A stretch of DNA of 33,204 nucleotides, from positions 1 to 33,204 of the forward strand of contig JACPGR010000012.1 of NCBI GenBank assembly GCA_016182415.1, given 5' to 3'. Under the pieces are notes generated by a model. The model was not told where the DNA came from and did not search any database. It saw only the letters and a list, made by a program, of their open reading frames with translations. A program made the translations under genes and the position numbers. Positions within the stretch are counted from its first letter, which is position 1. The number at the start of each line of letters is the position of its first letter. Source of the stretch: Candidatus Magasanikiibacteriota bacterium. Lineage in GTDB: Bacteria; Patescibacteriota; Patescibacteriia; Magasanikbacterales; UBA922. Of this stretch, positions 268 to 31,932 are shown in pieces.

Positions 268-530
268 GTAACTACTCAGCATGCTTTACTTGTGAACACA
301 AGCCCTGCCTGCGACTCGACTAAGCTCGTCGAAATCCGACAGGCATGGTACTCGTCGCGTCTTTTTTTACTTTAAATTCTAGGAAGAAAGCGGAAAACGG
401 CTCTGTACAACACCCGTGAGGGTGTTCGTCTTCTCTAGAAACGCCCAAACACCCTCACGGGTGTTGTACTAGGCTAAGATAAGCTAAATTAAATTAGCTA
501 AATTGTTTGTCAAGAGGGGTGAGTAGTTAC
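268..530. mobile_element. 263-bp inverted-repeat element with GTAACTACTCA termini
   Basis: The termini GTAACTACTCA (268-278) and TGAGTAGTTAC (520-530) are perfect inverted repeats. The left end continues into a stretch (TGCTTTA, then GTGAAC) shared with the element at 30946-31104. The interior holds a long palindrome at 405-469 and no open frame worth calling. It looks like a non-autonomous MITE-like element. This element fills most of the gene-free stretch 176-780. Confidence 0.65.
405..469. repeat. 22-bp inverted repeat whose arms are themselves hairpins
   Basis: The left arm (405-426) and right arm (448-469) are perfect reverse complements. Each arm can also fold alone, as AACACCC-GTGA-GGGTGTT and its mirror. 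The 21-base spacer contains TCTAGA. It is nested within the GTAACTACTCA element. Confidence 0.7.
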
Positions 531-12345: not shown

Positions 12346-12489
12346 AACGCAACTCACCCCCGCCCTCTCTTGGGAAGAGAGGGAGACACGTGAGTTTCCC
12401 CTCTCTATCAAGCTTCGCTGTGAACTCAGCTGGTTCCACTGAGGTCATCACGAAGTGAACAGAGAGGGGCGAGAGGGGTGAGTTGCGTT
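12346..12489. repeat. palindromic repeat family 1, copy A (with a nested insert)
   Basis: The ends CGCAACTCACCCC and GGGGTGAGTTGCG are inverted repeats. The left hairpin CCCTCTCTT-GGG-AAGAGAGGG is present. The right part is longer than in other copies because a second palindrome (about 12418-12469, CTTCGCTGTGAACTCAG against CTGAGGTCATCACGAAG) is lodged inside it. The element lies between two divergent genes and codes the optional 26-residue extension of the minus-strand gene. Confidence 0.75.
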
Positions 12490-13300: not shown

Positions 13301-14971
13301 ATGAAACATTTTTTCCAAAATAAACAAAATCTAATACTCCTGATTTTTTCAGTAGTCTTTTTTTTCATCTACAATTTTTTAAATTTCTCAATTCCATATC
13401 AGTTTAATTCACCTGATGAAAATGCGAATTTTGTGTTTACAAAACAAGTCTCGGAGTATGGGTTGTTGCTTTATCCACTCGATTCGCTCAAATATGGAGA
13501 GCTAGTCGAATTCATTCATCCGCGAAGTGCATTTGTAGAAGAAGGAGTTGGATCGAGTATTTTGCCGGTTGGGTTTTGGGGATTACCGCTTGTCTATGGC
13601 ATGATAGGAAAAATTATTGGAGTGTTTGGGACCTTGCTTATTACGCCGCTGCTTGCAATTTGTGCGATCTGGGGATTTTATGGAATTTTGAAAAAAGTTT
13701 TTGATGAACAGATTGCATTTTTTTCTGCATTACTTTTATTTTTCCAACCGGTCTTGTGGTACTACACAACACGAAGCCTATTTCCAAATGTGCCATTTAT
13801 TTCTCTCATTTTGATTGGCGCATGGTTTTTGATATGCAAACCCATGTCGCGTGCATTGCTAAATGACGTAGTGGGGATGAGTATTTTTATGCTTGGAATT
13901 CTGATGCGTCCAAATGAAATAATGTGGGTAGCACTTTGTTTTGCAATTGTCGCGGTGTGGTATCGAGCAGAAATTTCGTTGAAAAGATTGCTCGGGTGGA
14001 TTGGTGTTGGATTATTTTTTGTTGTAGTATATGCATTCATCAATCACTCGCTTTATGGTAGCAGTGCCGGAAGCTATGTTAGCTCTCGGTCGGTCGAATT
14101 ACAAACTTGGTATGCATATATTTTTCCATTTGGCATTCATCCTCGGACAATCATCAAGTCACTTTGGTTTTTTATGTCAAAATTGACGTGGTGGTATGTG
14201 ATGCCTGCAAAAATTGGATTGTTGTTTTTTCTCTATGATTGGTACAGAAAAAAATTATCTCGAGCACAAAAAGTATCTGGTGCAGTGTTTGTGGTGATGA
14301 GTATGTTTTTGGTAACGTATTATGGAAGTCAGATTGATAATTTGTATAATCTCAAGACAATCGGTGTGGCATATACTCGATATTGGCTACCAATTTCGAT
14401 TGGGATGATTCCGTTTATCGTGTATGGATTTTTTAGAATTGCTGAATTGTTTGACCGCAACTCACCCCTCGCCCCTCTCTTACCGAAGAGAGGGGAAACT
14501 CACGGATCCGTGTCTCCCTTCTCTTCGGTACGAGAAGGGCGGGGGATGAGTTGCTTCATCGTCTATGGTTTTGGGTTAGTTTATCTTGTAGTAATGTTTA
14601 TTTTGAGTGTAAATTTGGTCTTTGGTGGTATGGATGGAATCACTGCAACACACAAAAATTTGCTACACACAGCAGAGGTTAAAAATTGGGTCTTGGCACA
14701 TACAGATGACGATGCTATACTAGTAACAGATTATGAAGATAAGTTTTTTTGGCCTGATAGGCAAGTGATGGTACGGTTTTTTGACCCACGAGTTGGTTCA
14801 GCAATAGCCGAGCTACTTGAAAAAAAACAGATAGACGTGTATTATTTTGGAATCAAATTGGAAGGGGAGAGTGAAGAAAAGGTAAAAGAATACATCGAGC
14901 AATTTAGATTGGAGATTGAGAGCGTTCAAAATTTTGATGAGCATGGGTTGTATCGGTTCATCACAAAATAA
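13301..14971 (+). CDS. GT-C-like membrane glycosyltransferase with an in-frame palindromic insert
   Basis: The 556-residue protein has about ten transmembrane helices. An early external loop carries NSPDENANF, the acidic pair expected of GT39/ArnT-like enzymes that move sugars from polyprenyl phosphate, so a glycan-modifying role at the outer membrane face is likely. Residues about 386-418 (NSPLAPLLPKRG to REGRGMSC) are coded by a complete copy of palindromic repeat family 1 (14456-14555). It sits in a loop between two helices and keeps the frame. The sequence FIVYGF occurs just before and just after the insert. Substrate is unknown. Confidence 0.7.
   Translation: MKHFFQNKQNLILLIFSVVFFFIYNFLNFSIPYQFNSPDENANFVFTKQVSEYGLLLYPLDSLKYGELVEFIHPRSAFVEEGVGSSILPVGFWGLPLVYGMIGKIIGVFGTLLITPLLAICAIWGFYGILKKVFDEQIAFFSALLLFFQPVLWYYTTRSLFPNVPFISLILIGAWFLICKPMSRALLNDVVGMSIFMLGILMRPNEIMWVALCFAIVAVWYRAEISLKRLLGWIGVGLFFVVVYAFINHSLYGSSAGSYVSSRSVELQTWYAYIFPFGIHPRTIIKSLWFFMSKLTWWYVMPAKIGLLFFLYDWYRKKLSRAQKVSGAVFVVMSMFLVTYYGSQIDNLYNLKTIGVAYTRYWLPISIGMIPFIVYGFFRIAELFDRNSPLAPLLPKRGETHGSVSPFSSVREGRGMSCFIVYGFGLVYLVVMFILSVNLVFGGMDGITATHKNLLHTAEVKNWVLAHTDDDAILVTDYEDKFFWPDRQVMVRFFDPRVGSAIAELLEKKQIDVYYFGIKLEGESEEKVKEYIEQFRLEIESVQNFDEHGLYRFITK
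14456..14555. repeat. palindromic repeat family 1, copy B, inside a coding region
   Basis: The ends CGCAACTCACCCC and GATGAGTTGC bracket the left hairpin CCCCTCTCTT-ACCG-AAGAGAGGGG and the right hairpin CCCTTCTCTT-CGGTA-CGAGAAGGG. It has no stop codon in the frame used by the host gene and does not shift it. Confidence 0.85.
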
Positions 14972-19000: not shown

Positions 19001-19589
19001 ATGAATGAACAAATTCCAATAAAAATTGTCCCAAAGCCCTGGGGTAAACCTGACTTCCGCAATAGGACACCTAAAAGCAGGAAAAAATAGAAAATTTTTC
19101 TAAAAAATGGCTTGGCTAAGATAATTTTTTTTAGATAAACATATAATTTAGCTCATTTCTAAGACACCCAGCAATAAAGAGACAATCGCAAGTGCGGAAG
19201 TCAGGAAAATTGTCCCAAAGCCCTGGGGTAAAGAAATCTGGTTTGCCTTGCAACCAGGGTATTGTGGTAAAATTTTGCATATCAAAAAGGGTCATCAATA
19301 TTCATTACAGTATCACGAGCGCAAGATTGAAACTCAATATCTACTTAAAGGTAAAATTAGATTTTTGCTTGGTTCTTCGGAAGATTCACTTGAAGAAATT
19401 ATACTAAATCCTGGGGAAAAACTTGACGTATATCCGGGTATGGTTCATCGCGCATATGGTCTGGAAGATTCTGAAATTTTTGAAGTGTCATCCAATGATT
19501 TGGATGATGTAGTAAAGCTCAATGATGATTATGGGCGGATTGGAAAGGGAAATGATCTTGAGCGTGATAAACAACTTTCGCAAGAATAA
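19001..19589 (+). pseudogene. cupin (sugar-phosphate isomerase-like), 5' end split by an insertion
   Basis: The original start appears to be ATG 19001: MNEQIPIKIVPKPWGK, then an insertion (19049-19205). After a 27-base repeat of the last codons the reading continues KPWGKEIWFALQPGYCGKILHIKKGHQYSLQYHERKIE. The rest (QYLLKGKIRFLLG, LNPGEKLDVYPGMVHRAYGLED) is a cupin beta barrel with histidine metal ligands, like the C-terminal domain of type II mannose-6-phosphate isomerases. The original start now runs into a stop inside the insert (TAG 19088-19090). A shortened protein from TTG 19248 or a non-standard start is possible. Its role would be in sugar-nucleotide supply for the locus. Confidence 0.7.
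19049..19205. mobile_element. 157-bp MITE-like insertion with 13-bp inverted ends
   Basis: The ends CCTGACTTCCGCA (19049-19061) and TGCGGAAGTCAGG (19193-19205) are perfect inverted repeats. The element is flanked by a perfect 27-base direct repeat (19022-19048 and 19206-19232), which is cupin coding sequence duplicated on insertion. It codes no protein. Long target duplications are known for the IS1634/IS1549 type of the IS4 superfamily; kinship is inferred only from this feature. Confidence 0.85.
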
Positions 19590-19590
19590 T

Positions 19591-20451
19591 ATGGATCTAT
19601 CAATCATTACCGTCACCTGGAACGCAAAAGAAAATATCTCTGAACAAATCGAGTCGGTTTTTCGTGGGTGCAAAAATATTAGGTGCGAAGAAATTATTTC
19701 GGATAATGGATCGCAGGATGATACCGTAGAAATTGCCGTAGGGACAGGTCGCGACCTGTCCGCACCTGTGCAGGTAATTGAAAATGGCGCAAACATTGGG
19801 TTTGGTTCTGCAAATAACAAAGGACTCAAAATTGCACAAGGTGAATTTTTGTTATTTCTCAATCCTGATATGCGCGTCGAAGAGGGAAGTCTTGATGTTA
19901 TTGTAGAATGGATGAGACAACATCCAGATGTAGGAATCGTGAGCCCAAAACTTGTGGATCAGTTTGGAAAATTCAATTGGGACGCATCGCCTCGTAGATT
20001 CCCAAAAGTATGGGAACAAGTATTATTACTGTTAAAAGTCCCTCATTTTGTACCGACATTACTTGATCGATATTTGATGAAAGATTTTAATCCTGAATTA
20101 GAACAAGAAGTAGATAGTGTGCGTGGATCATTTATGCTCGTGAGAAGAGACTTAATCAAAAAACTCGGCTGGGGATTTGATCCACGATATTTCTTTTGGT
20201 TTGAAGATGTGGACACATGTCGAGAATGTTGGAAAGCGGGGTATAAAGTCATGTATACGCCGATCATCACTGCAGTAGATTATGTGGGTCAGAGTTTCAA
20301 AAAACGAAAAAGTTATTGGAAACAAAAAAACTTTAGTAAAAGCATGCTCACCTATTTTCGCAAATGGGAGCCGTGGTATAAATGGATGTGGATTGCGGTG
20401 TTTAGACCGGTGGGGATGGGGGTGGCGTTTTTGGTGGATTTGTTTAGATGA
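19591..20451 (+). CDS. GT2-family glycosyltransferase
   Basis: The 286-residue protein has the GT-A fold of family GT2: SIITVTWNAKENI at the N-terminus, the donor motif FLNPDM near residue 92, and the catalytic-base region FFWFEDVDTCRECWKAGY near 210. It resembles rhamnosyltransferases of the WbbL group, consistent with the rhamnose genes. A C-terminal hydrophobic stretch may contact the membrane. Residues about 51-59 (GTGRDLSAP) are coded by a 20-bp perfect palindrome (19742-19761) and look like an in-frame insertion in the loop before VQVIENGANIGFG. ATG 19591 gives the conserved start and follows the cupin stop by one base. Confidence 0.85.
   Translation: MDLSIITVTWNAKENISEQIESVFRGCKNIRCEEIISDNGSQDDTVEIAVGTGRDLSAPVQVIENGANIGFGSANNKGLKIAQGEFLLFLNPDMRVEEGSLDVIVEWMRQHPDVGIVSPKLVDQFGKFNWDASPRRFPKVWEQVLLLLKVPHFVPTLLDRYLMKDFNPELEQEVDSVRGSFMLVRRDLIKKLGWGFDPRYFFWFEDVDTCRECWKAGYKVMYTPIITAVDYVGQSFKKRKSYWKQKNFSKSMLTYFRKWEPWYKWMWIAVFRPVGMGVAFLVDLFR
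19742..19761. repeat. 20-bp perfect palindrome inside a GT2 gene
   Basis: GGACAGGTCGCGACCTGTCC is fully self-complementary. It is much richer in G and C than the surrounding coding sequence and is followed by a second short palindrome-like stretch (CACCTGTGCAGGT). Confidence 0.8.
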
Positions 20452-20536
20452 TACACAGATATACTAATGGCGCGGATTTACAAATATTCGAATTCGCAAA
20501 TTTGTAAATTCGCGTCATTGGTAAATCTGTGTATAT
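20452..20536. repeat. imperfect palindromic intergenic element
   Basis: TACACAGATATACTAATGG and the following GCGGATTTACAAAT are mirrored by ATTTGTAAATTCGC and then CATTGGTAAATCTGTGTA, with the centre at CGAATTCG (20489-20496). It fills the gap between two GT2 genes and begins immediately after the first one stops. Confidence 0.75.
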
Positions 20537-22644: not shown

Positions 22645-22744
22645 CGCAACTCACCCCTCGCCCCTCTCTTACCGAAGAGAGGGGAAACACACGATACCGT
22701 GTCTCCTTTCTCTTCGGTAAGAGAAAGGCGGGGATAGAGTTGCG
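22645..22744. repeat. palindromic repeat family 1, copy C
   Basis: A complete 100-bp copy: ends CGCAACTC and GAGTTGCG, left hairpin CCCCTCTCTT-ACCG-AAGAGAGGGG, a linker AAACACACGATACCGTGTCT, and right hairpin CCTTTCTCTT-CGGT-AAGAGAAAGG. It fills the gap between two GT2 genes. Confidence 0.9.
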
Positions 22745-22759
22745 TTCATATCACAACCT

Positions 22760-23863
22760 ATGTCAAATTATCCCAAAATCGCTATCATATATCTACTCTA
22801 CTATCACAACGAGTCATATATCGACGACGCGATTTCAGCACTCAAAAAAATAACCTATCCGAAAGATAAGCTTGAATTTATCATTGTCAATAATCCGCAT
22901 CCAACAGATGGACTCATGGCACGATATGTGGACGAGACCGTGATGCCACTTTCAGGCAAAGAAATTCCGCATGTTACCTATTTGCCACAAAAAGAAAACA
23001 CTGGTTTTGCGGGTGGTAATAATGTGGGAGTTGAGTGGGCACTTCAACATAATTTTGATTATGTTTTTTTTCACAACAATGATGGATTTTTTGCAACCAA
23101 TGCATTTGAGCCATTAGTAGAAGCGTTTGAATCTGACCCGAAGATTGGTGCGGTACAAAGTCTTATGCTCTTACATCCTGAAACTGATTTATTAAACAGT
23201 GCGGGAAATTCTTTTCATTATCTTGGGTTTGGTTTTTGTGATCAATACCGAACTAAGGTCGAAGAGTTACATTTGCCAAAAATAAAGGAAGTGGATTATG
23301 CAAGTGGAGCCGCACTTATGATTAGGTGTGATTTGATACGGAAATTTGGACCATGGGATCCTGACTTTTTTATGTATCATGAAGATTTGGAGTGGTCGTT
23401 TCGTTTGCGTATGATGGGATACAAAGTTGTACTTGCATCTGACTCTACTTTTTATCATAAATATCAATTTGGTCGAAGTATTGAAAAGTTTTTTTGGATG
23501 GAGAGAAACAGACATGCAATCATGCTTATGTTTTTCAAAGTACCAACCTTAATTTTATTATTTCCCATTGCGTTTTTCTTAGAACTTGGACTATGGTTTT
23601 TTAGTCTTGTCAATGGATACGCGAGAAAACGAGTTGACGTGTATAAGTACTGGCTCAAAAAAGAAAATTGGAACTTGTGGCTCAAGAAGCGAAAATTTAT
23701 TCAAAAAAATAGAGTGATTAGTGATAGAGAATTGTTAAAATATTCAGTTTCTGAAATCAAGTTTCAAGAATCGGAGATGAAAAATCCCTTGCTTAAATAT
23801 GTGGGAAATCCGGTTATGAAAGTATATTACTTTTTAATCGTGCGTCTCATAATCAGATGGTAA
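22760..23863 (+). CDS. GT2-family glycosyltransferase with a C-terminal membrane segment
   Basis: The 367-residue protein begins KIAIIYLLYYHNESYIDDAISALKK and has ENTGFAGGNNVGVEWA. The donor site is FFHNNDG and the catalytic region is FFMYHEDLEWSFRLRMMGY. Near residues 255-285 lies a hydrophobic stretch (TLILLFPIAFFLELGLWFFSL) that likely anchors it in the membrane, as in dTDP-rhamnosyl transferases. The next gene starts 3 bases after the stop. Confidence 0.88.
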   Translation: MSNYPKIAIIYLLYYHNESYIDDAISALKKITYPKDKLEFIIVNNPHPTDGLMARYVDETVMPLSGKEIPHVTYLPQKENTGFAGGNNVGVEWALQHNFDYVFFHNNDGFFATNAFEPLVEAFESDPKIGAVQSLMLLHPETDLLNSAGNSFHYLGFGFCDQYRTKVEELHLPKIKEVDYASGAALMIRCDLIRKFGPWDPDFFMYHEDLEWSFRLRMMGYKVVLASDSTFYHKYQFGRSIEKFFWMERNRHAIMLMFFKVPTLILLFPIAFFLELGLWFFSLVNGYARKRVDVYKYWLKKENWNLWLKKRKFIQKNRVISDRELLKYSVSEIKFQESEMKNPLLKYVGNPVMKVYYFLIVRLIIRW

Positions 23864-23866
23864 TAT

Positions 23867-24298
23867 ATGACCGAGCCAATACAATTAAATATAGTCCGTT
23901 TTGAACAATTTATTCGAAAAAATTTGTCTGTAATTAATACATTTTTAGATTACTTAATGAAAGAGGTAATTTCCGTTCCGACAAATGAAGAATTTATAAA
24001 TAACTGTCTTAATAGTTTCAAGCGAAATAAACATTTTTTTGAAAACAAAATATATGAATCTGATACAAATGAATTATGTTTTCTGGGTTCTCAGATATTT
24101 TTACAGGAAATAAATAGACTATTGCCACGCACTGATCAATGGATTATTAATTCTGAAAGTACAAATAGAATTATCAGAGCAGAAAAATTGATTAAGGATT
24201 TGACCATTGCCTTATATTGTGAACATGGTCCTAAAGTACCGACTGATGGTAGAAACGCCGAACTAAGACCAATTAACCCTGAAGGAACAAAAAAATAA
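23867..24298 (+). CDS. hypothetical protein, 143 residues
   Basis: I do not recognise a family. The product is soluble and mostly helical, with FEQFIRKNLSVINTFLDYLMKEV at the N-terminus and a hydrophilic, proline-containing tail (GPKVPTDGRNAELRPINPEGTKK). There is no signal peptide or membrane segment. It starts 3 bases after a glycosyltransferase gene and precedes rmlA, so it is probably part of the glycan operon. Its coding sequence is more AT-rich than that of its neighbours. Confidence 0.6.
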   Translation: MTEPIQLNIVRFEQFIRKNLSVINTFLDYLMKEVISVPTNEEFINNCLNSFKRNKHFFENKIYESDTNELCFLGSQIFLQEINRLLPRTDQWIINSESTNRIIRAEKLIKDLTIALYCEHGPKVPTDGRNAELRPINPEGTKK

Positions 24299-24325
24299 TC
24301 AGTGAAATCCATGATAATCTAGCTT

Positions 24326-24346
24326 GCCCCGTGTTTTTTACGGGGC
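24326..24346. terminator. hairpin before rmlA
   Basis: GCCCCGT-gttttttACGGGGC is a strong seven-pair stem, but no T run follows it on either strand. It could be a terminator, a processing site or a small repeat. Confidence 0.45.
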
Positions 24347-24358
24347 CTAATCAATGTT

Positions 24359-25444
24359 ATGCGAATAAAAAAAGCAATCCTCACCGGAGGCGGCAGAGCG
24401 ACACGCTTGCAACCAATTACCACGACGATAAACAAACACTTAATTCCGCTTGCAAACAAGCCCATGATTTTTCATGCAATCGAAAAAGCGGTGGAGGCAG
24501 GTGTTCAGGAAATTTTTATTAACACGAATCCGGGTGAAACAGATTTGCAACAGGCCATTGGAGATGGCGGACATTGGGGTATTCGCATAGAATTTTTTGA
24601 ACAAACCGGCGGACCTCAAGGTATCGCACATGTAGTAAAAGAAGCCGAGCGTTTTATTGGAAATGACCCCTTTATGTTTTATTTGTCTGACAATGTCTTG
24701 CTTGGAAGTCTTACTGAAATGTTTGACAAATTTCATAGCGGAAAATATGATTGTATGCTTGCACTTTCAGAAGTGAAAGATCCTGAAAGATTTGGCGTGC
24801 CAAAATTTGATGTATCCGGAAAACTTGTCGACGTACTTGAAAAACCACAAAATCCACCAAACAATTTTGCCGTTACAGGTATATATGTATATGGACCAAA
24901 AATTTTCTTCGACGCATTTGATCATATCGAAAAAAGTCCCCGAGGTGAGTATGAAATTTCGAGTATTCACTCATATTTTTTGAAGCAGGGCAGAGATGTC
25001 GGGTATACAGAAATCACGGGGTGGTGGAAAGATACAGGAAAGATGGATGATTTGTTGATTGCAAGCCAATTACTCTTGGATCATATGGATGAAAGGGAAT
25101 TTCCACATATGGGTAGGGTCGAGGCGGGTGCAAAAATTAGCGGTAAGGTTCATATAGGTATCGGCTCGCGCATTGCACAGAATGTTGAAATTAAGGGGCC
25201 AGTAATTATTGGAGAGAATTGTATTTTGAATAATTGCCAGATAGGTCCGTATGTTACCGTGGGTTCCGGCACAGAGGTCAGTGGGGCACAGATTACAGAT
25301 TCTATTATTTTTGAAAATAACGAGATACAGACCGACTTACATATCACACATAGTATTATTGGGAAGAATGTGATAATACATAAAAAAACGGCCGAAGGCG
25401 GTCGGTCGCTCATCGTGGGAGACAAAACAATAATTGAACATTAG
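24359..25444 (+). CDS. rmlA: glucose-1-phosphate thymidylyltransferase, long form
   Basis: The 361-residue protein has a nucleotidyltransferase domain (about 1-240) and a left-handed beta-helix tail (about 250-361, hexapeptides such as ISGKVHIGIGSRI and VIIGENCILNN). The signature GGGRATRLQP (10-19) with K26 binds the nucleotide. FYLSDNVL and GWWKDTGKMDDLL are typical of the family. It makes dTDP-glucose from dTTP and glucose 1-phosphate, step one of dTDP-rhamnose synthesis. The long form with the beta-helix is also used for other dTDP sugars. It is separated from rmlB by seven genes on the same strand. Confidence 0.92.
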   Translation: MRIKKAILTGGGRATRLQPITTTINKHLIPLANKPMIFHAIEKAVEAGVQEIFINTNPGETDLQQAIGDGGHWGIRIEFFEQTGGPQGIAHVVKEAERFIGNDPFMFYLSDNVLLGSLTEMFDKFHSGKYDCMLALSEVKDPERFGVPKFDVSGKLVDVLEKPQNPPNNFAVTGIYVYGPKIFFDAFDHIEKSPRGEYEISSIHSYFLKQGRDVGYTEITGWWKDTGKMDDLLIASQLLLDHMDEREFPHMGRVEAGAKISGKVHIGIGSRIAQNVEIKGPVIIGENCILNNCQIGPYVTVGSGTEVSGAQITDSIIFENNEIQTDLHITHSIIGKNVIIHKKTAEGGRSLIVGDKTIIEH

Positions 25445-25492
25445 ATATAATAAACCAATTTATATGTACCACTCATTATACTGCCATTGTTT

Positions 25493-26815
25493 TTAAAATA
25501 AATTTTTGTATAACAAATTATCTTGAGCGCTTAAAAAAATAAGCTCTCGTTGTTTTATGTTCACATACATACCCGCGACAGTATATGGTAATAATTGTTG
25601 CCCGATATTATACCCGGGATTAAATATTGCAGTGTTATGTTCGGTCCTAATTAATATGGTTCCATATGGATCAAACAATTGTATGTCCACTATCTTTTCT
25701 CCGCCTCGATATATGAGGCCAATACTGCCATTTTTACGAATCGTGTATAATTCCCAGTCATTCCAAAACCACCACTCGCCGGTTTCTCTATTGAAATAAT
25801 ATTTCGTCGCGTCTAATATTTTTTTTTCTTCGTTTTCTCGATTGATGAGTATCGTGTACAAATCATTTTGTGCGATAATATGATTCTTCTCAATGTCAAG
25901 AATCCGGGTAATTTCTTCGGCTATATTGTATGAAGCATCTGACATGGTATCTTCAATCTGTTTTTCTCTAAAATTCCACACGCCACTTTTATTGTCGACA
26001 AACCAGACGCTTGAGGTGCTCTCAATTATATTTTCAAGATTATTGAGTCGATTAATTTTTTGAATTGTGTCCCCGTATTTAATAAATAGGGGTTCGGTTC
26101 GGTCATATATATTCCATTTTAATTCGAGATTTTGCGCAAAATCAAATGAAAAAATGTTAACGTTTTGAGGATCATCAAGTGCGATGAGGCGGACTGTTTT
26201 TTTACCATTTTGTTCGGTCACTGCATATGCACTATTGAAGAAGGGAGAAACGGAAATTTCAGGTGTATGTTGAGAAGATAGACGCACAATGGACAGGGTT
26301 GAATTTTTTATCATATCAAAAGCAGTTATTTCATAGACTCCATTTACCATGCTTAGTATGAGTATATTTTTGGCATAAGGCGAGCCTATAATTTCGACAA
26401 TGCCGCTTATCGTATTATTTATTTTCGCGGGATTTGGGGATTTTACGAGAATCACATCTTTGATATAGGTGGTTTGATTATTTGAGATCGTAATATCTTT
26501 TTCCCATGTGAGAAAACCCTCTTTTTCAATTTTAAGATGATATACTCCCGGAGGTCGATTTGAAAGGCGTAGGGGAAGATCTTTGTTACTATAAATTTCA
26601 TTAAGATATACACGCGCATCTTTTGGATGTGCATCAATGCTTAAAACCCCTGTATGAGTAATGCGATTATGTGTAATATCATAGCCAAAACCTGCGGTGT
26701 AGAGTATGATAATTGGGGCAATAAGGAAAAAAGATGCGATGAGCGCACTCATGAGTACGCGCCGAATTCGTCGTGTGAGAAGGAAATTTGTATATCTTAG
26801 ATGTTTGGTGTCCAT
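25493..26815 (-). CDS. PEGA-domain membrane-anchored protein
   Basis: From ATG 26815 the product has 440 residues. Residues 21-41 form one transmembrane helix after a basic N-terminus (TRRIRRV). Residues about 56-125 are a PEGA domain (GVLSIDAHPKDARVYLNEIY, LPLRLSNRPPGVYHLKIEKEGF), a surface carbohydrate- or wall-associated beta module. The rest, about 300 residues, is beta-rich and may be a propeller. The start is chosen from the promoter at 26844-26872; an in-frame ATG at 26953 would overlap the divergent murA. The function is probably structural at the cell surface. Family assignment beyond PEGA is not possible. Confidence 0.75.
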   Translation of the reverse strand: MDTKHLRYTNFLLTRRIRRVLMSALIASFFLIAPIIILYTAGFGYDITHNRITHTGVLSIDAHPKDARVYLNEIYSNKDLPLRLSNRPPGVYHLKIEKEGFLTWEKDITISNNQTTYIKDVILVKSPNPAKINNTISGIVEIIGSPYAKNILILSMVNGVYEITAFDMIKNSTLSIVRLSSQHTPEISVSPFFNSAYAVTEQNGKKTVRLIALDDPQNVNIFSFDFAQNLELKWNIYDRTEPLFIKYGDTIQKINRLNNLENIIESTSSVWFVDNKSGVWNFREKQIEDTMSDASYNIAEEITRILDIEKNHIIAQNDLYTILINRENEEKKILDATKYYFNRETGEWWFWNDWELYTIRKNGSIGLIYRGGEKIVDIQLFDPYGTILIRTEHNTAIFNPGYNIGQQLLPYTVAGMYVNIKQRELIFLSAQDNLLYKNLF

Positions 26816-26816
26816 A

Positions 26817-26872
26817 TTGATAAAATATGTCAAATGCGCTATAATTATAAAGTATTTGATACCCTTATGCAA
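26817..26872. promoter_or_regulatory. divergent promoter pair sharing one symmetric -10 region
   Basis: Plus strand: -35 TTGATA (26817-26822), 17 bases, -10 TATAAT (26840-26845), reading toward murA. Minus strand: -35 TTGCAT (26872-26867), 17 bases, -10 TATAAT (26849-26844), reading toward the PEGA gene. The two -10 boxes overlap in the palindrome TATAATTATA. Confidence 0.75.
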
Positions 26873-26936
26873 GGCTCGAAGAGTAGTTTTATTAATTTGC
26901 ATATACTTTTCTTGATATTTAAAATATGTATGTGCT

Positions 26937-28238
26937 ATGGCTAAATTTATCATTCACGGCGGGAAAAAATTGAGTGGCGCAATTAGTGTCAATACTGCAA
27001 AAAATTCAGCTGTCGCATTGTTGTGTGCGTCGCTTATGATTCATGATGAAGTGGTGCTCTATGACGTCCCTCGAATTGAAGAGGTTTTTCGAATTCTTGA
27101 GATTTTAGAGAGTATTGGTGTTGATGTGACATGGCGTGATGAGTATACCGTGCATGTGGATAGTTCCAAAAAACTCACGATGGAGCATATCCATAAAAAA
27201 GCAACAGAAGTAACTCGTTCATCTCTATTGCTTTTTGGCGCCTTAGCTGCTCGAGAAAGAATCTACAAAATATATAAATCAGGCGGATGCAGATTGGGCG
27301 CACGCACTGTTAAGCCGCATGTGTTTGCATTACAAAAATTTGGGGTGAGTATTGAATCAAAGGCAAAATATTATGAGGTCAAAAATGTTCCTCTTAAATC
27401 AGCAGAGGTCGTCATGTATGAATCCGGAGACACTCCAACCGAAAATGCAATTATGGCAGCCGTCCTTGCTCCGGGGCTTACGACGATCAAATTTGCATCG
27501 TCAAATTATATGGTGCAAGATTTGTGTTATTTTCTCAATTCTGCGGGAGCAAAAATTGAAGGAATTGGATCAACAACGCTAACAATAAGCGGAGTCAAAA
27601 AATTAACCACAATCAAAAAATATCATATCATGCCGGATCCGATTGAAGCAATGAGTTTCATCGCGCTTGCAGTAAGCACAAAATCTTCACTTACCATACA
27701 AAATTGTCCGCTTGATTTTCTCGAACTTGAGCTTGAAAAATTATCGGTCATGGGTCAAAAATTCAGTCTCAAAAATAAGCGTGTTTCAGAAAATGGAAAA
27801 TTTAATATCGTTGATATTGTAATTAGTCCATCACCATTGCGAGCATTGCCCGATAAAATATATGGTCGTCCATTTCCGGGACTCAATATCGATAATCTGC
27901 CGTTTTTTGTACCTATGCTTACCCAAGCAAAAGGCAGAACGCTGGTGCATGATTGGGTATATGAAAATCGCGCAATTTATTATCTCGAACTTCAAAAGCT
28001 TGGAGCGCACATTACCTTGCTTGATCCGCATCGAGTATTTGTCGAAGGTGCATCGCAACTCAAAGGAAACGAACTTATGTGTCCTCCTGCCATTCGTCCT
28101 GCTGTCGCAGTGTTGATTGCCATGCTTGCGGCAAGAGGCAAATCAGTGTTGCGCAATGCATATCCGATTGAACGCGGATATGAAAATTTGGCTCTGCGTT
28201 TGACTAAGCTTGGGGCAGATATTATCCGAGAAGAATAG
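26937..28238 (+). CDS. murA: UDP-N-acetylglucosamine 1-carboxyvinyltransferase
   Basis: The 433-residue protein is MurA, which adds enolpyruvate to UDP-GlcNAc in the first committed step of peptidoglycan synthesis. Key residues are present: K22-N23 in NTAKNSAVALL, the fosfomycin-target cysteine C118 in SGGCRLGAR, and D319 in PFPGLNIDN. TPTENAIMAAVLAPG and MPDPIEAMSFIALA also match. Length is near normal (E. coli 419). Some loops diverge from the consensus (NIDNLPFF instead of TDMQAQ), so it may be a lineage-specific form. A shared bidirectional promoter lies upstream. Confidence 0.92.
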   Translation: MAKFIIHGGKKLSGAISVNTAKNSAVALLCASLMIHDEVVLYDVPRIEEVFRILEILESIGVDVTWRDEYTVHVDSSKKLTMEHIHKKATEVTRSSLLLFGALAARERIYKIYKSGGCRLGARTVKPHVFALQKFGVSIESKAKYYEVKNVPLKSAEVVMYESGDTPTENAIMAAVLAPGLTTIKFASSNYMVQDLCYFLNSAGAKIEGIGSTTLTISGVKKLTTIKKYHIMPDPIEAMSFIALAVSTKSSLTIQNCPLDFLELELEKLSVMGQKFSLKNKRVSENGKFNIVDIVISPSPLRALPDKIYGRPFPGLNIDNLPFFVPMLTQAKGRTLVHDWVYENRAIYYLELQKLGAHITLLDPHRVFVEGASQLKGNELMCPPAIRPAVAVLIAMLAARGKSVLRNAYPIERGYENLALRLTKLGADIIREE

Positions 28239-28263
28239 TACACAATCCGAATTTTGATTTTTG

Positions 28264-28314
28264 ATTGCGAAAAGAAGGTCTTCAACCACCGACAAGCAAT
28301 ACCTTCCTCGCAAT
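28264..28314. repeat. hairpin-forming intergenic sequence between murA and ctpA
   Basis: ATTGCGA then GAAGGT (28264-28279) pairs with ACCTTC then TCGCAAT (28301-28314), around a 21-base loop. No T run follows, so it is not a clear terminator. Confidence 0.5.
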
Positions 28315-28339
28315 TTCATTTTAGAATTTATATATCAGT

Positions 28340-29590
28340 ATGTTTCAACATAAAACAACAAAAGTTATTTTTTTTCTAGGTGTCGCCGTGAGTATCTTTG
28401 TGGGTGGCATGTTTTTTGGTATGGCACGAGGTGTAGCACAGACTGTCTTAAATGAAGGCGGAGAGGTAGATATCGCAAAAGTCATAGAACTCTATAGTAA
28501 GACACGTTCATCTGAAGTAAGTTTCGATCAATATTGGGAAGTTTGGGATAAAATTCATACTAACTTTATCACGCAACCGGTGGATGATGTCGAGTTGTTT
28601 TATGGTTCAATTGAGGGACTTGTCAATGGACTAGGCGACCCATATTCTATATATTTTTCACCAAAAAAAGCTACTGAATTTGCAACAGATTTGTCTGGAA
28701 AATTTGGAGGTATTGGCGCAGAAATAGGATTGCGAGATAAAGAAGTTACGGTTATCGCGCCTCTCAAAGATTCTCCGGCCGAGAAAGCAGGACTTAAATC
28801 CGGAGATAAAATTCTGACCATCGACGGTGTTGATACACATACGCTTAGTTTAGAAGAAGCGATTTCAAACATACGCGGAGATCAGGGGACAGAAGTACTA
28901 CTTGGAGTTACCAGTAATGGATTTGAGACGCTTCGAGAAGTGAAGGTTGTTCGCGAAGTCATTAATGTGTCAAGTATTGATTGGACAATGAAAGAAAAAA
29001 ATATTGTCTATATACGCATTAGTTATTTCAATGAAAATACATGGAATGAATTTGATACAGCCGTAAAAGAAATTTTACTCAAAGCGCCTGCGGGAATTAT
29101 TTTAGACATGCGAAACAATCCAGGCGGCTATTTGGATGCATCGGTCAAAGTCGCGGCAGAGTGGGTAAAACGTGGTACTATTGTATCAGAACGATTTAAC
29201 GACGGAAAAGAAGATACCTATGACGCGAACTTGGGCAAACATCGTTTTACAGGTATTCCAACGGTGGTGCTTATTGACGAAGGTACTGCGTCCGGTTCAG
29301 AAATTGTAGCCGGTGCCTTGCAAGATTATGGAGTTGCAACGATACTGGGTCAGACTACCTTTGGCAAAGGATCGGTTCAAGAGTTTGAAATTTTACCAGA
29401 TGGCTCGGCACTCAAACTGACAATTGCTGAATGGTTTACCCCACAAGGCAGGCAAATAAACGAAATCGGCATTGAACCGGATCAAAAAATAGAAAAAATG
29501 TTTACACAAATTGAGGGTACTGATGGGACGAGAGAAGAGGATTTTATAGACAATGGGTTGAATAAGGCTTTAGAAATTTTGGAAAATTAA
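28340..29590 (+). CDS. C-terminal processing peptidase, S41 family
   Basis: The 416-residue protein has an N-terminal membrane anchor or signal (IFFLGVAVSIFVGGMFFGMARG, about 10-31). A PDZ domain follows (FGGIGAEIGLRDKEVTVIAPL, SPAEKAGLKSGDKILTIDG, about 115-200), then an S41 catalytic domain. The serine is S318 in EGTASGSEIVAG and the lysine K343 in TFGKGSVQ; their spacing of 25 residues matches known CtpA enzymes. MRNNPGGYLD is also typical. It cleaves substrate proteins outside the membrane. Length is normal for the family. It follows murA after a 101-base gap containing a hairpin. Confidence 0.93.
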   Translation: MFQHKTTKVIFFLGVAVSIFVGGMFFGMARGVAQTVLNEGGEVDIAKVIELYSKTRSSEVSFDQYWEVWDKIHTNFITQPVDDVELFYGSIEGLVNGLGDPYSIYFSPKKATEFATDLSGKFGGIGAEIGLRDKEVTVIAPLKDSPAEKAGLKSGDKILTIDGVDTHTLSLEEAISNIRGDQGTEVLLGVTSNGFETLREVKVVREVINVSSIDWTMKEKNIVYIRISYFNENTWNEFDTAVKEILLKAPAGIILDMRNNPGGYLDASVKVAAEWVKRGTIVSERFNDGKEDTYDANLGKHRFTGIPTVVLIDEGTASGSEIVAGALQDYGVATILGQTTFGKGSVQEFEILPDGSALKLTIAEWFTPQGRQINEIGIEPDQKIEKMFTQIEGTDGTREEDFIDNGLNKALEILEN

Positions 29591-29612
29591 AAAACTAGGG
29601 AAAATAATATAA

Positions 29613-29660
29613 AATTGAGATACAGTTGAGATATTGTTGAGATATTTTTTGTATGTGATA
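29613..29660 (+). repeat. short TTGAGATA-type repeats
   Basis: Three loosely repeated TTGAGATA units occur in the gap between ctpA and the riboflavin kinase gene, with a partial inverted counterpart TGTATCTCG downstream. They resemble the long array at 31733-31850. Confidence 0.5.
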
Positions 29661-29685
29661 TGTATCTCGTGTTATGTGATTAAAT

Positions 29686-30030
29686 ATGTTCGGTGGTATT
29701 GTAATAAAAGGCGAGGGTATTGGACGGCAGTATGGATATCCTACTGCAAATTTGAATTGTTTGAAAAAAGAAGTCAAGATTTCCGAAGGTATTTATGCAT
29801 GTTATGTATATGTTCGAAAGAAGAAATACCCGGCAGCTTTGGCAGTTCAAAGCGATCCATGGAAAGTAGAGGTTCATATTTTTGATTTTAATGAAGATTT
29901 GTATGGTTCATTTATCGAGGTGGATCTGGTGCAAAAGGTGAGTGAATTTGAGATGTATACCAATACTAAGGAATTGATTGAAAAAATTGGGAGAGATGTA
30001 CAGATGGTAAAGGATTTGCTGGGGGTTTAA
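29686..30030 (+). CDS. stand-alone riboflavin kinase
   Basis: The 114-residue protein consists only of a flavokinase domain, the C-terminal half of bifunctional RibF. It has GEGIGRQYGYPTANLN with the ATP/metal motif PTAN at 19-22, the catalytic glutamate E62 in VEVHIFDF, and DLYGSFIEVDLVQKV. It phosphorylates riboflavin to FMN. No FAD synthetase domain is attached, so FAD would have to come from another enzyme. The gene ends 10 bases before the convergent era stop. Confidence 0.85.
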   Translation: MFGGIVIKGEGIGRQYGYPTANLNCLKKEVKISEGIYACYVYVRKKKYPAALAVQSDPWKVEVHIFDFNEDLYGSFIEVDLVQKVSEFEMYTNTKELIEKIGRDVQMVKDLLGV

Positions 30031-30040
30031 AATTATGAAT

Positions 30041-30889
30041 TTACATATTTTCTACCCAATGTGTATCTATCTCGACTTCTAACTTCAAAAAGACTTTTTT
30101 GTTGAGCGCTTGCTCTAGTTCTCGGCGTGCCATCTTTCCGACTTCTTTTATTTTAAGTCCACCTTTGCCAATAATCATTTTTTTGTATCGTTTTTCACTG
30201 GTGAGTACGTTTGCTTCAATTACAAATAAATCAGGTTTATCTTCAATTTTTTCTACGTTTACCGTAATTGCATACGGTACTTCCTTATCAAAAACAGAAA
30301 ATATTTTTTCACGGATAATTTCAGCAGTCCAAAAATAATCATTGACATTGGTTATTTGTGCACCCTCGTAGACAGGTTTACCTTCGGGCAGTAGTTCAAT
30401 TACTTTATCTCTGAGTGGTGCTACATGTCGAGCACCTAATGCTGAAAGTGAAAACATCGCATCAAAATCTTTTTCCCAAAGCATGTATTCTGGTTGGTGT
30501 GTTCGTTCTTCTTTTGGAAGGTCACTTTTATTTATTACAAGAATTTTTGGGATATTGATATTTCGGATAAGTCCATAGGTGTAGCGTTCCTCATCCCCAA
30601 TTTCTCGAGATGGATCTACTACATACAAAATGATGTCGACTCCTTGGAGTGCATCTTTTGCCTTTTGGATGAGTTTGGCAGTGAGTTTGTCTTTTTTGTG
30701 TTTGAAGATTCCGGGGGTATCAACAATGACTGCTTGTCCTTGGGGGAGATTTATTACTCCATGAATAATATCTCGAGTCATTTGTGCGCGAAAAGACGTG
30801 GCAGCTATTTTGGTGCCTACAAGTGTGTTTAATAGCGTAGATTTACCTACATTTGAACGTCCGATGAGGACGGCGAATCCTGATTTCAT
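30041..30889 (-). CDS. era: GTPase Era
   Basis: The 282-residue protein has a GTPase domain with P-loop GRSNVGKS (10-17), switch threonine in AQMTRDIIHG, DTPG (57-60) and NKSD (120-123). It ends in a KH domain with IIGKGGLKIKEVG (about 238-250). Era binds the 3' end of 16S rRNA and helps mature the 30S subunit. Length is slightly short of E. coli Era (301) but complete. Its upstream region carries a nested palindromic element. Confidence 0.95.
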   Translation of the reverse strand: MKSGFAVLIGRSNVGKSTLLNTLVGTKIAATSFRAQMTRDIIHGVINLPQGQAVIVDTPGIFKHKKDKLTAKLIQKAKDALQGVDIILYVVDPSREIGDEERYTYGLIRNINIPKILVINKSDLPKEERTHQPEYMLWEKDFDAMFSLSALGARHVAPLRDKVIELLPEGKPVYEGAQITNVNDYFWTAEIIREKIFSVFDKEVPYAITVNVEKIEDKPDLFVIEANVLTSEKRYKKMIIGKGGLKIKEVGKMARRELEQALNKKVFLKLEVEIDTHWVENM

Positions 30890-30945
30890 GTGTTAGAAAG
30901 CTTACGAGGCTTACAAGGCCTTTATATTAAGATTTTATCTTATTT

Positions 30946-31104
30946 GTAACTACTCACCCTGCTTTATTCGTGAACGCAACTCTCCCCTCGCCCCTCTCTT
31001 ACGGAAGAGAGGGGAAACACACGTTCACCTGTCTCCTTTCTCTTCGGTAAGAGAAAGGCGGGGATAGAGTTGCGTTCACCAGACATAGGGTGGTGAGTAG
31101 TTAC
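30946..31104. mobile_element. 159-bp element with GTAACTACTCACC termini
   Basis: The ends GTAACTACTCACC (30946-30958) and GGTGAGTAGTTAC (31092-31104) are perfect inverted repeats, as in the element at 268-530. The left flank inside the end (TGCTTTATTCGTGAAC) is also shared. A complete family 1 palindrome is nested in it. Confidence 0.75.
30975..31074. repeat. palindromic repeat family 1, copy D (nested)
   Basis: Ends CGCAACTC and GAGTTGCG, left hairpin CCCCTCTCTT-ACGG-AAGAGAGGGG, right hairpin CCTTTCTCTT-CGGT-AAGAGAAAGG. It matches copy C almost base for base. The inverted flank extends to TGAACGCAACTC / GAGTTGCGTTCA (30971-31078). Confidence 0.9.
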
Positions 31105-31121
31105 TCTTATTTTAGCAGATC

Positions 31122-31692: not shown

Positions 31693-31732
31693 ATTTTTAT
31701 GTTTGTGGTATACTGTTGGTGTTAAAAATAAA

Positions 31733-31850
31733 ATTGAGATACATTGAGATACATTGAGATACATTGAGATACATTGAGATACATTGAGATACATTGAGAT
31801 ACATTAGATACATTGAGATACATTGAGATACATTGAGATACATTGAGATA
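31733..31850 (+). repeat. 10-bp tandem repeat array, about 12 units of ATTGAGATAC
   Basis: Seven perfect units (31733-31802) are followed by one unit missing a G (31803-31811), three perfect units and one partial unit. Downstream, 31870-31916 holds several ATTATCTCAAC-like units on the opposite strand, so the array and this stretch could pair. It ends about 80 bases before the pyrG start. Confidence 0.95.
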
Positions 31851-31932
31851 GGGAGATATTAAGAGTAAAATTATCTCAACATTATCTCTATCTTATCTCA
31901 ACATTATCTCAACATATTAATTTAAATTTTGT

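Follow-up and report, generated by a model that had tools for sequence, protein, structure and literature searches.

A REPIN-like paired-hairpin repeat in a Magasanikbacterales genome and its association with DUF559 nuclease genes

Repetitive extragenic palindromic (REP)-like sequences fill many bacterial genomes, and a partner is known only for those with REP-associated tyrosine transposases (RAYTs). Here we describe a paired-hairpin repeat in Candidatus Magasanikiibacteriota bacterium (order Magasanikbacterales; GCA_016182415.1, here G000, a 1.11-Mb draft genome of 99 contigs) and its association with genes for putative nucleases of the DUF559 family. The repeat was noted in four copies (A to D) in a 33,204-nt contig (JACPGR010000012.1, positions 1 to 33,204, C47 in G000), the whole of which is referred to below as the window.

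The two-hairpin core of this repeat resembles the REP doublets (REPINs) of the REPIN/RAYT systems in Pseudomonas and E. coli (PMC3116915, PMC2817692): it is a non-autonomous inverted pair of REP-like units, its autonomous form would be a nuclease gene flanked by two mutually inverted units, copies lie between and sometimes within genes, and stem changes are paired. The partner, however, is a DUF559 protein of the PD-(D/E)XK type (Vsr/homing-like) rather than a Y1 tyrosine transposase, and there is no GTAG head; because two defining features (the GTAG/CGTC tag and the Y1 partner) fail, the core is not filed as a member of this system. REPs with a CGTC tag have been described without a dedicated transposase (PMC3733652). 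Like the core, they form head-to-head palindrome dimers, some within genes, and they span several phyla including alphaproteobacteria and Neisseria; the core units described here nonetheless lack the CGTC tag. Rickettsia palindromic elements, of which RPE-4 and RPE-6 have been reported as CGTC REPs (PMC3733652), share with copy B an in-frame palindromic repeat within open reading frames (ORFs), though the sequence is different.

Miniature inverted-repeat transposable elements (MITEs) of the IS66 family are similar in their GTAA-starting ends, their 8-bp duplications, and the ends of this genome's IS66 gene, but not in the REPIN-like core or its nesting in MITEs with other ends. The Vsr-like homing endonuclease I-Bth0305I, which ranks second among fold matches to the predicted DUF559 structure, is intron-encoded; the DUF559 gene here instead has hairpins at its borders, and no intron was identified. 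In the literature searched (a search that was not exhaustive), DUF559 is mentioned in 15 papers; none of those listed deals with its mobility in title or abstract, and a hairpin–DUF559 link appears to be absent as well. Our results suggest that a homing-type nuclease and REP-like hairpins are partners, a pairing not recognised before, and we consider it probable that a REPIN-like core borders DUF559 elements, with DUF559 as mobiliser, and was later captured by IS66-type MITEs.

The hairpin unit and its association with DUF559 genes

The repeat unit is 44 nt long and consists of CGCAACTC, a C-rich lead, and a 24-nt hairpin with a 10-bp stem, CCCCTCTCTT-NNNN-AAGAGAGGGG or a variant; the core is a pair of such units, one inverted relative to the other. 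A 44-nt covariance model (lead plus hairpin) identified 96 units in the genome, and BLAST recovered approximately 40 loci in its 1.1 Mb, confirming that copies exist beyond the window and excluding a chance origin for them. Short hairpins of the 20–40 bp class, inverted pairing, and dispersal are characteristic of REPs and REPINs, and all are seen here (24-nt hairpin, 96 units). No GTAG/GTGG or CGTC tag stands beside the hairpin, the unit reading CGCAACTC..CCCCTCTCTT-loop-AAGAGAGGGG, and a query of GTDB r220 with the exact core pattern returned no match.

Stem variants CCTTTCTCTT and CCCTTCTCTT are paired across both arms. The compensatory changes that the earlier note had proposed are real (C-G to T-A on both sides) but small in extent, affecting two of the 10 stem pairs only. 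With units counted in a fixed register, in place of a MAFFT alignment that was misregistered on its 3′ side, 99.5% of cells were paired, and the covariation score of the 19 distinct units was reached by none of 500 shuffles; the number of doubly changed stem pairs was no higher than in shuffles (225/500). The paired changes thus amount to one or two old events. Because just two pairs vary on both sides, maintenance of the local hairpins is retained on evidence of few events, and a strong covariation claim was dropped, two pairs alone not being decisive. A structured RNA, the other possibility raised at first, is without positive support, since no Rfam family matches the repeat above gathering score; the window's Rfam matches are two tRNAs only.

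Across the order, DUF559 genes are associated with this unit. Among 86 genomes surveyed, with DUF559 defined by PF04480 matches, units were found in 36 and DUF559 in 37; both were present in 28, units only in eight, DUF559 only in nine, and neither in 41 (Spearman 0.70; Fisher p = 4e-8, a value that overstates independence because the genomes are related). Reading of the flanks showed almost all DUF559 genes to be accompanied by C-rich hairpins that have a CCCC lead. In an objective scan, 47 of 49 loci had a unit within 250 bp of the gene on one side or more, 31 of them on both; the corresponding figures were 0 of 59 for control genes (0/18 Y1, 0/24 pyrH-like, and 0/17 membrane-protein homologues of window ORF 13301–14971) and 23 of 3000 for random 250-bp windows. 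The hairpins lie on either side of the gene at a median distance of approximately 50 bp and are mutually inverted in 24 of the 31 two-sided loci. The hairpins before and after the same gene are also much more alike than permuted pairs (0.73 vs. 0.52 ± 0.02; 0/5000). In G000 itself, a DUF559 gene (G000:C38:13926–14291) has a block of nested CGCAACTC cores on either side.

Residues D62, E73, D75, and H79 are invariant in 39 DUF559 sequences. The predicted structure (pLDDT 88) is closest to a Neisseria DUF559 structure (3hrl) and next to I-Bth0305I; together with the PF04480 match and the conserved catalytic-type residues, this predicted nuclease fold assigns the protein to the DUF559 group of PD-(D/E)XK enzymes. 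An earlier assignment puts YcjD, which is similar to Vsr, in the PD-(D/E)XK superfamily (PMC1189080).

The link between DUF559 and hairpin units extends across phyla. The same arrangement occurs in Elusimicrobia, Edwardsbacteria, UBP2, Bacteroidota, cyanobacterial plasmids, and Sinorhizobium, as well as in Azospirillum, Deinococcus, and Sphingomonas, with the gene placed there between paaD/paaZ, sufB/sufC, and transhydrogenase genes. E. coli ycjD is located between sapF and fabI, adjoining CCCTCACCCCAACCCTCTCCC hairpins, and its related units are of the CCCTCACCCC type. Two metagenomic sequences contain in-frame DUF559 elements: one in HsdR, between HSDR_N and SWI2/SNF2 (L281 1897–5769; an Elusimicrobia metagenome-assembled genome), the other in MetH, between its two B12-binding domains (L287 607–4824; BMS3Abin03). 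A DUF559 element in Deinococcus proteolyticus (L331 1390–1880) is flanked by the two arms of a 15-bp inverted repeat, GGGCCAGCGTTGCTG/CAGCAACGCTGGCCC.

Presence and absence of the element also vary within one genus. In genus g9, a unit-DUF559-unit element lies just upstream of a pyrH-like gene in G008 and G083; at the same site in G033 and G085 the element is absent, and a short spacer holds a terminator-like hairpin. The E. coli tktB-ypfG spacer contains a DUF559-type unit in E17 and 300444; the four further strains inspected have a REP there. This spacer was rejected as a clean empty site, as the unit replaces the REP rather than inserting cleanly; UTI89 was likewise rejected as an empty site for ycjD, which is absent there but with other genes beside sapF.

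IS66-type elements and other carriers of the core

The length of 100 bp first given for the repeat holds for the core but not for the whole element, as the core is the interior of larger carriers. In most complete copies, including copy D, it is centred in an element of 155–161 bp with GTAACTACTCACC...GGTGAGTAGTTAC ends. Scanning the genome for these ends yielded 27 distinct elements of 47–263 bp, none with its own transposase. Perfect 8-bp direct repeats lie outside 13 of the 27, with other repeat lengths found at 0 or 1 and shuffled sequences giving a mean of 0.5 and a maximum of 5. IS66 elements are known to generate 8-bp target repeats and to have GTAA-starting inverted repeats (PMC3281130, PMC12888890). 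The genome's sole IS66 transposase gene (G000:C64:49059–50472; L093 201–1614) is bounded by the MITE ends, and a coreless MITE of 127 bp with these ends has inserted into a sequence of the TIR3 type (a terminal inverted repeat, TIR, family described below) whose empty form is also present in the genome, with AATAATTC duplicated exactly. The elements are therefore IS66-type MITEs by their 8-bp duplications, GTAA-starting TIRs common to the IS66 gene, and short length without a transposase, and recent copies have moved as such; these duplications and shared ends attribute recent copying to IS66-MITE transposition rather than to a Y1/RAYT enzyme. The IS66 gene is broken by one stop and one frame change, and in this assembly the MITEs are left without an intact helper. 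A candidate autonomous element at C64:36739 to 39663 was rejected, as it comprises ordinary genes between two separate TIRs.

The core is not restricted to these carriers, being found in three TIR families: IS66-type, TIR2, and TIR3. The TIR2 element (CTCACCTTACGCGATTTTTAAAAAT) holds the core, and its flanks show the target repeats TTAAGTT and TAATATA; the TIR3 element (TATACTAACTTGCTTTAATAATTCC, TA flanks) also holds it. At locus L012 a TIR2 element lies inside a TIR3 element, the empty TIR3 sequence being present in L151, and concentric cores within cores also occur. Among 59 relatives' genomes IS66 was found in only one other, where its ends differ, and the same units, single ones included, occur in relatives without IS66.

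TIR2 (7-bp duplications) and TIR3 (TA flanks) are MITE families in their own right, mutually nested at L012/L151 (G000 C12, C38); no transposase was identified for them. A second paired-hairpin core type (CACCCCCCTGCCCCCCTCAAGGGGGG...) is present in IS66-type and TIR3 carriers at L098, L151, and L163.

Proposed mobilisation of the core and alternative explanations

As we envisage it, the Vsr/homing-type PD-(D/E)XK nuclease of a small element made of unit, DUF559 gene, and inverted unit would cut at or near palindromic sites, and repair of the break would copy in the hairpin-bounded sequence, the gene-less core being the non-autonomous form. The homing-endonuclease-like fold fits the proposed palindrome cutting and repair copying, and such a route would explain mid-palindrome insertion, concentric nesting, and hairpin replacement. 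In G000 the core would then have been captured in IS66-type MITEs and, via nesting, in two further TIR families, with MITE transposition and target duplication producing most present copies. For bacteria at large, we put at about even the chances that DUF559 proteins of the YcjD type are the missing enzymes of REP-like hairpin repeats, the nuclease with two inverted units being the autonomous element and gene-less pairs being REPIN-like parasites that spread by nuclease-triggered repair into palindromes, and in frame into hsdR and metH. If so, C-rich hairpin repeats would gain an enzyme and DUF559 a function, there would be a non-RAYT route to REPINs, the short PLAPLPEGEG-like peptides written into proteins by such repeats would be explained, and E. 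coli ycjD would make the system testable in a standard laboratory strain.

Besides the relatedness of the surveyed genomes, several observations weigh against DUF559 as the mobiliser. Eight of the 36 unit-bearing genomes have no DUF559 match, and unit presence correlates weakly with Y1 as well (p = 0.02). Covariation between hairpin and protein sequences from locus to locus is only weak (Mantel r = 0.14, 5/2000) and loses significance below 70% identity, and the predicted fold resembles that of I-Bth0305I only modestly (TM 0.52–0.62). Neither the core nor the DUF559 elements yielded a clean target duplication or an exact empty site; in E. coli and genus g9 the element takes the place of an existing hairpin without clean interruption, and no transposition was observed.

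The core could instead be the mere interior of a plain IS66 MITE, with the DUF559 link irrelevant to the window copies. The 8-bp duplications and IS66 ends are what this predicts, and the coreless 127-bp MITE with the same ends has moved too; it is nonetheless unlikely, given that IS66 arms are absent from copies A, B, and C, that three TIR families carry the core, and that relatives without IS66 have the same units flanking DUF559. Somewhat less probable again is that the units are recognition, regulatory, or terminator-like sites kept beside DUF559 (such as sites at which a selfish nuclease cuts or is kept from cutting) and spread by recombination or other elements. Their proximity to the gene on both sides and the terminator-like position of the G008 element upstream of the pyrH-like gene agree with such a role, but most units lie nowhere near a DUF559 gene (G078 has 31 units and two genes) and some are in frame within ORFs. 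Nuclease-free template switching during replication, by which one arm is copied onto the other, could account for palindromes, concentric, accordion-like nests, and changes on both sides of just two stem pairs; as it leaves dispersal, the DUF559 association, and within-genus presence and absence unexplained, we give it the least credence of all.

The earlier note had read the repeat as a REP or bacterial interspersed mosaic element (BIME) that moves in the form of single-stranded hairpins, and had suggested looking for a Y1/RAYT-type transposase. The anatomical part of this reading stands, in that there are inverted hairpin pairs resembling BIMEs and REPINs, many copies, paired substitutions, and single units in relatives; mobilisation by a Y1/RAYT enzyme does not, and we regard it as very improbable. 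The genome does contain seven Y1_Tnp matches, two of them within approximately 200 bp of a copy. Both of these copies, however, are MITE insertions beside the gene, and the one near the Y1 gene on C80 is a separate insertion bounded by its own GAAATATT duplication. The RAYT-like Y1 genes (C51, C80; L046 1250–2150, L047 1330–2150) have different hairpins of their own (GTCCCGTAGGGAC type; AGGCAGGCA..TGCCTG). At relatives' Y1 loci, covariance model R1 found no strong unit (best 17.7 bits) and a generic hairpin-unit scan found none (0/18); in unit-bearing G025 and G031, Y1 was not found. A derivation from IS200/IS605, as in palindrome-associated transposable elements (PATEs), was ruled out by the 8-bp duplications of complete elements and the differing Y1 flanks.

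The Y1 genes on C51 and C80, with their hairpins, form a second, separate REP-like system.

Copies and other features in the window

All four copies were located where the earlier note had placed them, with boundaries revised for copy A and for copy B, which lacks the last G (Table 1). Both units of every copy were recovered by the 44-nt covariance model (E 2e-11 to 5e-21). The second hairpin is, as described, the reverse complement of the first, the halves of the copies being 81–86% complementary, and where the long palindrome of copies C and D is mismatched, their local hairpins pair perfectly. Inspection of the flanks found no IS66 arms on copies A, B, or C. Copy C lies between two glycosyltransferase genes. 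Copy B contributes approximately 33 residues (RNSPLAPLLPKRGETHGSVSPFSSVREGRGMSC) to the product of its host ORF, a membrane-protein gene, that are absent from homologues; its 99 nt keep the frame open, while a canonical 100-nt copy would halt translation at codon 415.

Table 1. Repeat copies and IS66-type elements in the window
Feature	Position	Strand	Basis
Copy D carrier: complete IS66-type MITE, 159 bp, GTAACTACTCACC...GGTGAGTAGTTAC, core central	30946..31104	+	End scan, flanks
Copy D, left 8-bp target-site duplication TCTTATTT	30938..30945	+	Perfect match to right one
Copy D, right 8-bp target-site duplication TCTTATTT	31105..31112	+	Perfect match to left one
Copy D core: CGCAACTC lead, hairpin 30991–31014, linker, hairpin 31035–31058, GAGTTGCG lead	30975..31074	+	Covariance model
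Copy C: core only, without IS66 arms; hairpins 22661–22684 and 22705–22728	22645..22744	+	Covariance model
Copy B: core only, 99 nt, in frame within ORF 13301–14971	14456..14554	+	
Copy A: core with additional palindrome (~50 nt) in loop of right hairpin	12348..12487	+	Covariance model
Second IS66-type MITE, 263 bp, same ends as copy D carrier, other interior with strong palindrome	268..530	+	Flanks TTTAATTT/TTTGATTT, 7/8 match

Other repeats are also present in the window. A spacer-free 84-bp palindrome at 20451–20534 consists of two 42-nt arms that are 86% complementary, and a 27-nt direct repeat occurs in identical copies at 19022–19048 and 19206–19232, 184 bp apart. Downstream of the L9 gene, a 10-bp unit (ATTGAGATAC) forms a tandem array at 31717–31870, and a related short array lies at 29614–29647.

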